From NCBI GenBank assembly GCA_013360495.1, contig JABWBM010000010.1:1-36720 (forward strand): a DNA stretch of 36,720 nucleotides, given 5' to 3'. The position numbers and the translations under genes were made by a program. Positions within the stretch are counted from its first letter, which is position 1; every line of letters starts with the position of its first letter. The DNA comes from Planctomycetaceae bacterium (GTDB lineage Bacteria > Planctomycetota > UBA8742 > UBA2392 > JABWBM01). Shown in pieces: positions 6,728 to 28,938 of this stretch. Under the pieces are notes generated by a model. It saw only the letters and a program-made list of their open reading frames with translations. It was not told the origin of the DNA and ran no database searches.

Positions 6728-6756
6728 AAACGAAAACCCCGCCGGAAGCGGCGGGG
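6728..6756 (-). terminator. Rho-independent terminator of the double-glycine peptide gene
   Basis: Perfect 8-bp GC stem (CCCCGCCG paired with CGGCGGGG) with a four-base loop, followed on the minus strand by TTTTCGTTT. It lies about 50 bases after the stop of the small peptide gene and before the clpC promoter, so it separates the two transcripts and supports real expression of the peptide. Confidence 0.85.
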
Positions 6757-6805
6757 TGAGGTCGCAAAGCTTGGACAATGAGAAACTTGAAGATTGACCA
6801 CCTGG

Positions 6806-6955
6806 TTACGGGCGCGAAAGAATGATCTTTCCCTTTCTGCTTCCCTGACGGCACCACGGATTCGGCCACTCCGGGCAATTGTTCACGCCGGACATGGTCT
6901 GCGTTCTGACGCCGCCCACAACTGACTTCATCTCGTTCGTTGATATCGTTTTCAT
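6806..6955 (-). CDS. Small peptide with double-glycine leader, bacteriocin/RiPP-like precursor
   Basis: A 49-residue peptide. The first 15 residues, MKTISTNEMKSVVGG, have the form of double-glycine leaders cut by C39-peptidase ABC exporters (pattern: short basic start, polar helix, E-M/L, hydrophobics, GG). The predicted 34-residue mature part is basic (six Lys/Arg, one Glu), rich in Gly/Ser/Asn and Trp, and has two cysteines flanking PEWPNPW, which could form a disulfide or thioether loop. The start at 6955 is chosen over the upstream GTG/ATG frames because AAAGGA lies nine bases before it. A strong terminator follows. No exporter, immunity protein or modifying enzyme is in the window. Alternatives: a secreted signalling peptide, or a chance GG in a short hypothetical protein. 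The function is inferred only. Confidence 0.6.
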   Translation of the reverse strand: MKTISTNEMKSVVGGVRTQTMSGVNNCPEWPNPWCRQGSRKGKIILSRP

Positions 6956-7203
6956 CGCCTCTCGTCCTTTCTCGTTATCAGCCAACCAAGTTATGAAAGC
7001 CCTGTTCCAACAACTCATCCTCTACGCACAAAAGGATACTCGTGGTCTTTAATTTCGACCATTCAATACTCTTTCGCCTCACACTTTTCGGTACGATTTC
7101 AGACCACCCTATCGTCCAAGGTTCCAAAGACGGACCACCGGCACCAACCGTGGATGGTGTATGCATCGCTGCTGTTTCTCGCGGTATTACCAATGGCGAA
7201 ACA

Positions 7204-7223
7204 CCGAACCATCCATGGTTCGG
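7204..7223. repeat. Perfect 9-bp inverted repeat
   Basis: CCGAACCAT and ATGGTTCGG separated by two bases form an almost loopless palindrome. A related, inverted sequence (AACCGTGGATGGTGT) lies at about 7146-7160, so the two may also pair with each other. No T-tract follows on either strand, so it is not an obvious terminator; an operator or RNA hairpin is possible. Confidence 0.6.
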
Positions 7224-7259
7224 ATAACAGGCCAATTTTCAACTGCCTGCTAAAATCAC

Positions 7260-7866: not shown

Positions 7867-8139
7867 TCACATTCTCCCGCAGTCGTAATTGAAAAAGCGC
7901 GAACTCGTCCCATGGGGGGCTATGCCCACACGCACTTCTTTCATGCACTTCGGGCAGCGGCCAGTGTACGCCGTCCCATCTTCGTTCTTGTACATGCGGG
8001 TGTAGGCTTCGTTGGCGCAGAGAAAACGCACGCCGATGAACTTGCGCGCGCCCGATTGTTCGGGCGGCTCTTCGCCGGACTTTCCGCCGATGGTGATGTC
8101 GACCGGAGGCATGTTCTGCCATTCAAAAATATTTGCCAT
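7867..8139 (-). CDS. Small zinc-ribbon-like protein of unknown function
   Basis: A 90-residue protein. The first third (MANIFEWQNMPPVDI, then a Gly/Glu-rich linker) is polar. The rest holds four cysteines: VRFLC, a CPKC knuckle in YTGRCPKCMKEVRV, and a final NYDCGRM, spaced like a small zinc ribbon, with the clear strand pattern RVGIAPHGTSSRFFNYDC. I have the impression that short proteins of this design recur in PVC-type bacteria, but I cannot name a family. The cysteine pattern is why this minus-strand frame is preferred over the longer frame on the other strand. The ATG has no clear Shine-Dalgarno, and its upstream side abuts a palindromic repeat element, so its promoter may have been altered. 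An alternative start is the Met at residue 10. Confidence 0.65.
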   Translation of the reverse strand: MANIFEWQNMPPVDITIGGKSGEEPPEQSGARKFIGVRFLCANEAYTRMYKNEDGTAYTGRCPKCMKEVRVGIAPHGTSSRFFNYDCGRM

Positions 8140-8155: not shown

Positions 8156-8309
8156 ACGGAAGAAATTTAGCCGCGGATGAACGCAAATGAACGCGGATAA
8201 AGAACATACGAGATGAATCCCTTCTTTTTCGAATTCATTCTTTCGCTATGTCGTGGCCTTTTTCTCATATGCGTTTATCCGCGTCTATCTGCGGCCAAAA
8301 TTCTTCCGT
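8156..8309. repeat. Palindromic dispersed element, copy 1 (GCGGATGAACGC family)
   Basis: About 154 bp with imperfect terminal inverted repeats. The left end reads ACGGAAGAAATTTAGCCGCG and continues with GATGAACGCAAATGAACGC; the right end, read in reverse complement, starts ACGGAAGAATTTTGGCCGC and continues with the same words more diverged. A second copy lies at 28671-28841. It encodes nothing. It fills the space between the zinc-ribbon gene and sfsA and may carry or disrupt their promoters. No target duplication is visible. Confidence 0.65.
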
Positions 8310-8339: not shown

Positions 8340-9056
8340 ATGGCGATCATCATGCCATTTGAGAAGCCACTGCTGCGCGGCGTTCTGCTCAAGCGCTACA
8401 AGCGCTTTTTGGCCGATGTCAAGCTCGACGACGGGCGAGTTCTTACCGTCCATTGCCCCAACTCCGGCTCCATGAAAGCGTGCTGCGAGCCGGGCCGGCC
8501 CGTGATCGTGAGCGATTCGCAGGACGCCAAGCGCAAGCTTCGCTATACATGGGAGATGATCCAGATGGGCGAGACCTGGGTCGGCGTCAACACCAGCAAC
8601 CCAAACCGCGCCGTCGCGCAATTCATCGAGCAAGGCGCGATCGCGGAGTTGGCTGGATACGCAGCGCTCAAGCGCGAAGTGAAATACGGCAAGGAAGGCA
8701 GGAGCCGCATCGATATGTTGCTCAGTGGCGGCGGCAAAGCCGACTGCTACGTCGAGGTGAAGAACACGACCATGCGCGTGGGCGAGCACTCGGCGTTCCC
8801 TGACGCCCAGACCGAGCGTGGCCGAAAACATCTTGAAGAGTTGGCGCGGGAGGTGAAGGGCGGAAAGCGCGCGGCGATGTTCTTCTTCGTGGGTCGCGCG
8901 GATTGCTCACGCTTTCGGCCCGCCGACGAGATCGACCCCGAGTATGGTGCACTGCTCCGCAAGGTCGTGAAATCCGGCGTCGAAGCCCTCGCCTACCGCA
9001 TGTCCGTTTCACCCGATGGCATCGAGCTACGCGATCGTTTGCCGGTGGATTTGTGA
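8340..9056 (+). CDS. sfsA: SfsA family protein (sugar fermentation stimulation)
   Basis: A 238-residue protein with the hallmark SfsA motifs: VHCPNSGSM near the start, WVGVNTSNPN, SRIDMLL, CYVEVKNTT, FPDAQTERGRKHLEEL and CSRFRPADEIDPEYG. The family has an N-terminal OB-like part and a C-terminal restriction-endonuclease-like fold in which the Asp of RIDML and the Glu/Lys of VEVK form a PD-(D/E)xK site. A DNA-binding or nuclease role has been proposed, while the name comes from enhanced maltose use in E. coli. All catalytic-type residues are kept. ATG 8340 is used; the Met five codons later (8352) is equally plausible. It stands alone, convergent with the TPR lipoprotein gene, and just downstream of a palindromic repeat element. 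Confidence 0.93.
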   Translation: MAIIMPFEKPLLRGVLLKRYKRFLADVKLDDGRVLTVHCPNSGSMKACCEPGRPVIVSDSQDAKRKLRYTWEMIQMGETWVGVNTSNPNRAVAQFIEQGAIAELAGYAALKREVKYGKEGRSRIDMLLSGGGKADCYVEVKNTTMRVGEHSAFPDAQTERGRKHLEELAREVKGGKRAAMFFFVGRADCSRFRPADEIDPEYGALLRKVVKSGVEALAYRMSVSPDGIELRDRLPVDL

Positions 9057-14739: not shown

Positions 14740-16281
14740 TTAGCGGACATTGACTTTGTGTGCTGAGTCGAGCAGTGGTTGGAATACCATGTAGCCCGCC
14801 TTGACGTGTTTCGTGAAAAATTTCAACGCACGATCGCGCGCCTTATCAAGAGTGCTGTTCTCGGCAGCAAGAGCAAGAGCGTTCCGGTGGTGCATTGCGG
14901 CAAAATGGACAGGCAGCGCAATGGCAGGGGCAATACTCGCCAAATAACGGTCGGTGTGGTGAAAGAGGTGGGTCGCTGACTTTCTGTCTCCTGACAGAAA
15001 TGCGATGCGCGTTCGCACCACTGGCGTAAGGCAGCGATTCGCCGCCGCATAGCCTGCGGGAATTATCATGCGTTCCACCGCGGCATCGAACGATGCCAGC
15101 GCCTTCGAAGAAAAGTCTCTTCTCGTGGCAAGGGCCAAAAACTCCGCGTACTTGCCCAGCAGGAGGAGGAAATAATTTGGGGCTCCGTGCCAGTTCCCGG
15201 CGATGCTCTCTGCCTCCCGAAGTTCCTTCGGATCCTCGCTCCACAGCGCCATAGAGCAGACCCAGAGGGGGCCCCACTTGCCGCAGTATGCTTTTGCCTC
15301 TTGAAAGTTCATCGCGCCCGCAAAAAAATTCGCGCCCGCGAGCCTTGGAATCGAGCTTACTTCCTGCTTGTCGCGCGGAAGCCTCGGCAGCGCGCGCAAA
15401 ATCCGGGCGTGTCCCCGTTTCAATCTTCCATTGTCGATGTCGTTGGCTCCGGCCATCTCCAGAAGAAAATGAAATCTTACCGACTTCCGGAAGGCTGGCG
15501 CTGTCAGAGCGATCGCGGCTTCCGTGACCCGCGTCGCCTCGGCGAGGCGAAGTTGTTGCCGCAGTCCGCCAACCAGATTGTGCGTATCGATACAAGCCTG
15601 GTCGTCAAGGCCGTCCTTGCACGACACGAAAGCTGCCAGCACTACCTCCCGAAGATTGTGCTCCGTCGCGGCAAGGTTTCCGGAGAACAGGTCGTACATG
15701 GCCGCCTCACGTAAAAACGCGCGTCGCAGCCCGGTATCGTCGCAGAGCCGCATGACCTGCTCACCGGCTTTGACCAGTTGGCCAGCCTTTCCAAGATCCG
15801 GGTTACCATGAACCGATGTGTGAAGCATATCGATGATCTGCCGAAACGACTCCTGGCTGTGGGCGTTAAGACGCTTGCGAAGCTTGTCGTACCCCACCAT
15901 GGCGTCGTTTAATTCGCGCATCACCTTGAGATGCTGCTTGCCCGCGAGCGCGCCGAGCCGCATTTTCGATACCGCGCTCATCGCCTGAACAAGCTCCAGC
16001 AGATCGGAAGCGTTGCTCGCGACAGCTTTAGGAACGTCAGACAGCTTTGGACTCCCCTCGCCCGTAAGCAGCCACGAAGGGTTGACGCCGAGCCGTTTCA
16101 CGATACGCCGGCAAAACGCCACCGAGGGTTGCGCGCCTTTCATGTACCGTATGATTTTCTGGTGCTTGATATCGAGTTTGCGGGCGAGGCCGCGAAGCTG
16201 GTACTCCTTGACGAGTGCGCCGAGGCGTACGACGAATTCTTGATCTTCTCCTTCATCGCTGTACGCCTGCTGGCTTGACAT
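14740..16281 (-). CDS. HTH-domain regulator with long helical-repeat C-terminus
   Basis: A 513-residue protein. Residues about 15-75 form a Cro/CI-type helix-turn-helix: QLRGLARKLDIKHQKIIRYMKG as helices 2-3, and FCRRIVKRLGVNPSWLLTGEG, whose WLLTGEG ending is typical of phage CI-like repressors. The remaining 430 residues are helical, rich in Ala/Leu/Arg, with TPR-like pairs (AAMYDLFSGNLAATEHNLREVVLAAF; LASFDAAVERMIIPAGYAAANR), suggesting a ligand- or peptide-sensing domain as in Rgg/PlcR-type or MalT-like regulators. The exact family is not recognised. GAGGGA nine bases before the ATG supports the start. A CACAyTG-n-CArTGTG palindrome lies 72 bp upstream and may be its own operator. The target genes are unknown. 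Confidence 0.75.
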   Translation of the reverse strand: MSSQQAYSDEGEDQEFVVRLGALVKEYQLRGLARKLDIKHQKIIRYMKGAQPSVAFCRRIVKRLGVNPSWLLTGEGSPKLSDVPKAVASNASDLLELVQAMSAVSKMRLGALAGKQHLKVMRELNDAMVGYDKLRKRLNAHSQESFRQIIDMLHTSVHGNPDLGKAGQLVKAGEQVMRLCDDTGLRRAFLREAAMYDLFSGNLAATEHNLREVVLAAFVSCKDGLDDQACIDTHNLVGGLRQQLRLAEATRVTEAAIALTAPAFRKSVRFHFLLEMAGANDIDNGRLKRGHARILRALPRLPRDKQEVSSIPRLAGANFFAGAMNFQEAKAYCGKWGPLWVCSMALWSEDPKELREAESIAGNWHGAPNYFLLLLGKYAEFLALATRRDFSSKALASFDAAVERMIIPAGYAAANRCLTPVVRTRIAFLSGDRKSATHLFHHTDRYLASIAPAIALPVHFAAMHHRNALALAAENSTLDKARDRALKFFTKHVKAGYMVFQPLLDSAHKVNVR

Positions 16282-28555: not shown

Positions 28556-28670
28556 GCGGTAAAGCAATAAATTTTCAAGATTTATGACCGAAATAGAATT
28601 TCAAAAACACGCACGATATGGCGTAGCTGGATATCAATTCAGCGGCATTTTTTGTGTGTATATGGATACA

Positions 28671-28841
28671 GAATTTTAGCCGCGGATGAACGCAAATAAA
28701 CGCGGATAAGAAAAACGATCACGAAACCGCGAAATTGAGAAAACACGAAAATGAAAACAATCTTTCGCGCCTTTACTCTTTCGTGCCTGCGCAATGGCCT
28801 TCATCCGCGTTCATTTGCGTTCATCCGCGGCCAAAATTTCT
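28671..28841. repeat. Palindromic dispersed element, copy 2 (GCGGATGAACGC family)
   Basis: About 171 bp. Terminal arms of about 37 bp are nearly perfect: the left begins GAATTTTAGCCGCGGATGAA, the right in reverse complement AAATTTTGGCCGCGGATGAA, then both read CGCAAAT(A/G)AACGCGGAT. An inner pair, CACGAAACCGCGAAA and TTTCGCGCCTTTACTCTTTCGTG, gives a nested palindrome. Compared with copy 1 at 8156-8309 the arms are better preserved, suggesting a younger insertion. No target duplication is seen. Confidence 0.75.
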
Positions 28842-28938
28842 TCAGCTCCCGCGGCGAAATCCATTCGTGCAATTGCATCGGCGGCCCATCGCCGTCAGAA
28901 TCAGACTTTTCGCTGAACCAACGCCCTGGAGGCACACC

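Follow-up and report, generated by a model that had tools for sequence, protein, structure and literature searches.

Peptides with a double-glycine (GG) leader are usually encoded in clusters together with their exporter and an immunity gene. Where TIGR01847 leaders are served by PCAT/C39 exporters (ComA, PCAT1, LahT), the PCAT leader consensus is L(-12)xxxE(-8)L(-7)xxxxG(-2)G(-1) (PMC6959990), and the locus described here shares with these systems a 15-residue leader, hydrophobic residues at -12, -7 and -4, Glu at -8 and the GG motif, as well as a C39-ABC exporter and an HlyD adaptor in the genome. It differs from them in that about 34 peptides are encoded at scattered loci, with cores mostly shorter than 30 residues that bear paired Cys, and in that no immunity genes were seen, surface-protein modules being found instead. 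Another precedent comes from Synechococcus elongatus, whose small GG-motif EbfG proteins are C39-exported and needed for biofilm (PMC4997328). The EbfG1-4/PteB system resembles ours in its small secreted GG-motif products, C39 export, the lack of homologues elsewhere and an EbfG role other than that of a bacteriocin. Mature EbfG proteins are 6–7 kDa and come from one operon (PMC4997328), whereas the cores here are 1–4 kDa, belong to many modules and have a proposed surface role. Finally, RRNPPA systems such as Alo of Paenibacillus likewise combine numerous HTH-TPR regulators with small peptide genes in their vicinity, but in Firmicutes the propeptide leaves the cell, is processed extracellularly and returns as a short peptide (PMC7425212, PMC9765709), whereas the peptides here have a GG leader and Cys loops, and the regulators are retained in relatives that lack the peptides. 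Taken as a whole, we lean slightly toward an explanation in which the gene encodes one of many C39-matured, disulfide-looped peptides that serve surface-protein modules.

The gene lies on the minus strand of the window, by which we mean the whole 36,720-nucleotide stretch of DNA that was analysed. The window comes from an uncultured Planctomycetota MAG, the single available genome of its family, and represents a little-studied lineage, in line with the first-pass annotation, which had supposed an unstudied one. An open reading frame with its ATG at 6955 and its stop at 6808–6806 encodes a 49-residue product, the leader MKTISTNEMKSVVGG followed by the core VRTQTMSGVNNCPEWPNPWCRQGSRKGKIILSRP. 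The features that matter below are:

6806–6955, minus strand: double-glycine peptide gene, 49 codons plus stop, over the TIGR01847 cut-off
6911–6955, minus strand: 15-residue leader MKTISTNEMKSVVGG, fitting the PCAT consensus, 23.7 bits leave-one-out
6809–6910, minus strand: 34-residue core with a Cys-x7-Cys loop (CPEWPNPWC) in its sequence, the two-Cys pattern recurring in 21/34 sister cores
6965–6970, minus strand: ribosome binding site AAAGGA, read from the sequence, 9 nt before the ATG
6736–6757, minus strand: intrinsic terminator, a 9 bp stem with 8 GC, then TTTTCGTTT
14740–16281, minus strand: HTH-TPR regulator of 513 aa, one of 37 paralogues and the nearest cassette-type gene to the peptide, 7.8 kb away

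Leader, ribosome site and terminator are thus as the first-pass annotation had described them, and so is the basic 34-residue core with two Cys around PEWPNPW, which has a net charge of +5 and its Cys seven residues apart. Sister genes have comparable ribosome sites of the AAGG/GGAG type, and the terminator is identical at 29/30 nt (97%) to the one after a sister peptide (C217:7526). The core itself matches nothing known. A search with the whole peptide found nothing real in its own genome, 98 relatives or GTDB genomes, most of the weak matches being without the leader and several having internal stops, and Rfam gave no match around the gene.

The leader has I at -12, E at -8, M at -7, V at -4 and G at both -2 and -1, and fits the PCAT consensus with hydrophobic residues replacing Leu. 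TIGR01847 (bacteriocin_sig) scores it at 17.3 bits against a curated cut-off of 15.7, aligned over residues 1–15 of 1–15, and a model of the sister leaders that excludes this one gives it 23.7 bits. Scored by a leave-one-out matrix it reaches 45, whereas in a control of the same 520 kb of DNA, reversed, no ATG 15-mer exceeds 13. Profile, consensus and leave-one-out score together bear out the first-pass assignment to the C39/PCAT type. They also bear on the possibility that the frame is spurious or dead, a chance leader-like reading near a terminator. The window copy does sit apart from the cassettes described below, and its frame is known from one genome only; however, a leave-one-out score far above the reversed-DNA background, a ribosome site and a terminator, the recurrence of these features in 33 sisters, the synonymous differences that separate the sister leaders and the pairing of Cys make this reading very improbable.

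The window peptide is one of at least 34 precursors in one genome that have the same leader and different short, variable cores. A TIGR01847 search of the genome gave 21 matches, 10 of them over the cut-off, while only 1/14 control genomes had a match over the cut-off. Traced back to the start of its frame, each of the 21 matches begins with ATG, and a purine-rich ribosome site precedes most of them. A custom leader-profile search found 29 matches in the same genome at E ≤ 0.05, and the list of 34 was compiled by reading contigs; because the search near regulators contributed some of the 34, distances to regulators were evaluated statistically on the unbiased TIGR01847 set only. Cores range from 11 to 40 residues (median about 20), and about half of the genes have a terminator within 160 nt downstream. 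Sought as the first-pass annotation had proposed, peptides sharing the leader number at least 34, and a gene with at least 33 sisters is not an orphan as a lone gene would be. The family is known from this one uncultured Planctomycetota MAG. Possible further members were noted beside regulators at L108 4870 (MKILTSNEMVLASGC followed by GG...), L128 10384 (MKKLSTAEMISCSGS followed by GG...) and L126 2116 (MQILGKSETLAINGG followed by further residues).

Cysteines in the 34 cores are paired. Exactly two are present in 21 cores, none in 12, one in 1 and more in none, whereas shuffling the pooled letters would give about 12 cores with one Cys and seven to eight with two. The spacing between the two is at most seven residues in 19/21 two-Cys cores (P = 0.003), and the C-terminal residue is Cys in 11/21 versus 2 expected. 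Several cores also have a W[ST]xT[KR]-like motif in common. Paired Cys suggest one disulfide loop per peptide, although, with 12 sister cores lacking Cys, the family as a whole does not depend on a disulfide.

The first-pass annotation expected the maturation machinery elsewhere in the genome, and a search for C39-peptidase exporters located both an exporter and an HlyD adaptor on other contigs. The C39-ABC exporter gene is split over two contig ends. QxxxxDCG lies in the first half of the C39 domain, at the end of one contig (C129); the remaining half, with HF..DP, is on the other (C32) and leads into ABC_membrane and ABC_tran domains and then the HlyD-type adaptor. We infer that the two ends form one exporter gene, in which the catalytic residues are present. 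Another C39-related domain, besides a fourth match of 22.8 bits on C222, belongs to a fusion protein (C170, L056, 12256–13713). This domain is related to solved peptidase domains, but in the alignment with them its catalytic Cys and His are replaced, and we rejected an active peptidase on that account. It is followed by a hydrophobic segment with CPSC and CITC and by a tail with CAPC. No Pfam model claims this C-terminal part; assignment to VKOR or thioredoxin, finding no Pfam support, was set aside, and we claim the CxxC motifs alone. HlyB-type transporters also have a C39-like dead domain, and the fusion resembles them in lacking the catalytic Cys and His, but its domain is joined to the CPSC/CITC segment and CAPC tail rather than being part of an ABC transporter. 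The fusion gene shares its contig with two peptides and two regulators and is absent from the 98 Planctomycetota relatives. One hypothesis is that the dead C39 domain holds precursors by their leaders while the CxxC part of this membrane protein oxidises them, that is, during disulfide formation.

Leader and exporter raise the question of whether the family is simply a large arsenal of bacteriocins or microcins, short antibacterial peptides released against competitors through a common C39 exporter. A class II type leader and a PCAT/HlyD exporter favour this, as do cores that are mostly cationic (29/34 have a net positive charge) and highly variable, as diversifying competition expects. Several observations run against it. 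No immunity gene was recognised beside the sisters, whose neighbours are Ig-domain, VWA and HTH genes, and apart from the peptides no recurrent small gene was seen there, though small immunity proteins can escape. Typical class II bacteriocins are longer than cores of 11–21 residues, and self-protection against 34 peptides would be costly. We therefore consider an antibacterial arsenal unlikely. The first-pass reading as a bacteriocin, microcin-like or signalling peptide may still apply.

What surrounds the sisters points instead to surface-protein modules, our preferred reading. Clustering of neighbouring genes recovered three recurrent families, namely Ig-domain proteins, VWA-fold proteins and HTH-TPR regulators, and 29/34 peptides belong to such cassettes (regulator within 4 kb, or Ig or VWA gene within 1.5 kb). 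Among the 21 unbiased leader matches, 12 lie within 4 kb of an HTH gene, while at most 9.3% of the genome does so (P = 5e-8); in the full list it is 21/34. Peptide and Ig gene are on the same strand in 22/23 cases, with the peptide before the Ig gene in half and after it in half. The Ig neighbours are large secreted proteins with He_PIG Ig domains, at whose C-termini a GCS or GCA signature precedes a hydrophobic stretch and then a basic tail. They thereby recall MYXO-CTERM and JDVT-CTERM proteins, whose ends likewise consist of a Cys signature, then a transmembrane helix, then a basic tail (PMC11980579), but their GCS-type tail is distinct and scores below the curated cut-offs (10.9 vs 20 bits for MYXO-CTERM, TIGR03901, which matched 1/10 proteins at all; 12.5 vs 27 bits for JDVT-CTERM). 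Membership of MYXO-CTERM was rejected for this reason. Often present as well is a secreted protein of about 300 residues that carries DxSxS and LTDG motifs and is predicted to fold like a VWA domain (structure match at E about 1e-10). It belongs to a six-member VWA-fold family that includes copies on C190, C254, C251, C165 and C72 (L060, L063, L068, L072, L075), and the two members tested have no Pfam or NCBIfam match. The regulators, transcribed divergently within the cassettes, are 504–543 residues long, with an N-terminal HTH_3 domain and a helical-repeat (TPR-type) remainder. About 37 copies are present in the genome, many of them within peptide cassettes, and profile searches match them to HTH_3 and, weakly, to TPR only.

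The window peptide is one of five family members that stand apart from cassettes. Its nearest regulator is 7.8 kb away, no Ig, VWA or regulator gene lies closer than this, no Ig gene occurs within the window, and a remnant regulator, sought beside the peptide, was not found. With more than 7 kb between it and cassette genes, only family membership connects it to the surface module. The window also contains other features. An 80-bp repeat at 7174–7253 that contains the near-palindrome CCGAACCATCCATGGTTCGG recurs at 81–84% identity on C33, C82 and C249, the C82 copy lying at the 3′ end of a GCS-tail gene, and we regard it as an interspersed element. Short repeats of the CCGCGGATGAACGCAAATGAACGCGGATAA type form inverted pairs at 8159–8304 and 28670–28843 and occur at several places in both the window and C82. 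Between the peptide and the gene at 8340–9056, a minus-strand ORF at 7867–8139 encodes 90 residues with a CPKC...C pattern and has no Pfam match.

Proximity to regulators is also what an RRNPP-like arrangement would produce, in which the peptides are pheromones read by the HTH-TPR proteins and each module pairs a peptide with a sensing regulator that switches the surface-protein operon. The regulators combine an HTH with a TPR-type superhelix, their weak best Foldseek matches include AimR and Rap receptors, peptides occur within 4 kb of them far above expectation, and copy numbers are similar (37 regulators, 34 peptides). However, these structural matches have E about 1e-3 or worse (best 1.2e-3) and are generic to TPR folds, and regulators are multi-copy in 16/16 order-level relatives, all without peptides. 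Regulators and cores show no significant co-variation (Mantel rho 0.14, P = 0.14, 16 pairs), on which basis cognate regulator–core pairing was rejected, and Cys-looped cores of 20–34 residues do not resemble the short pheromones that cells take back up. We doubt, then, that the peptides are pheromones of this kind.

Relatives allow the modules and the peptides to be considered separately. With the custom leader profile, peptides were found in 0/98 other Planctomycetota genomes (16 of the same order), so a homologous leader, whose absence from relatives the first-pass annotation had named as a refutation, did not appear, a point made moot by the sisters within the genome. Nor were GG or other small-peptide families seen beside the relatives' regulators within the flanks read. 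The regulators are multi-copy in all 16 order-level relatives and nearly absent elsewhere, and there too they adjoin proteins with GCS or GCA tails; since the two occur together in relatives without peptides, the peptides are dispensable to those modules there. We could match this pairing of a regulator with a GCS/GCA, transmembrane and basic-tail protein to no system described so far. In the order-level relatives, C39 turns up only as short or weak matches. It therefore seems that this lineage added the peptides, the exporter and the fusion to an older regulator–surface-protein module, with one genome of the family available and their co-occurrence resting on that single positive. Separately, we note that the HTH-TPR regulator expansion (window 14740–16281 and about 36 loci) is lineage-specific.

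On the preferred reading of C39-matured peptides serving surface-protein modules, the gene would make the precursor of a small secreted peptide. An ABC exporter encoded elsewhere would, through its C39 domain, recognise the 15-residue leader and cleave behind Gly-Gly, and the 34-residue core would be exported and closed by one disulfide. Such precursors would be part of modules whose other products are a large secreted Ig-domain protein bearing a sorting tail at its C-terminus, in some cases a VWA-fold protein, and an HTH-TPR regulator encoded divergently, and the peptides may act with these proteins at the cell surface, in adhesion, matrix or neighbour recognition. Judged from the sequence (gene, leader, family, Cys pairing, cassettes and the presence of an exporter), it is highly probable that this is an exported, C39-processed peptide family. 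What favours a role in the surface module is that the peptide genes are linked, much as in an operon, to those of Ig and VWA surface proteins, together with the EbfG precedent; we offer it tentatively, as a suggestion that falls somewhat short of probable. Bolder still, and in our view a long shot, about three dozen C39-exported disulfide-loop peptides could be wired into HTH-TPR-controlled surface operons and served by a purpose-built oxidase, whose dead C39 domain would bind GG leaders while the fused CxxC membrane and CAPC part makes the disulfide; in each module one or two peptides would then serve as address tags of the surface or as contact signals.

These at least 34 mini-peptides, all but one with two Cys or none, are spread over surface-protein modules. 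They bring together, in one small genome and at many sites, 34 GG peptides that are tied to surface proteins rather than immunity, that have paired Cys and that come with a candidate leader-guided thiol oxidase. If the HTH-TPR proteins were to read the peptides, their count would exceed the more than 25 peptide–receptor pairs called a single-genome record in 2020 (PMC7425212). If the surface role is true, the use of C39 export for purposes other than bacteriocins, known from cyanobacterial biofilms, would extend to planctomycetes and to modular surface identity.
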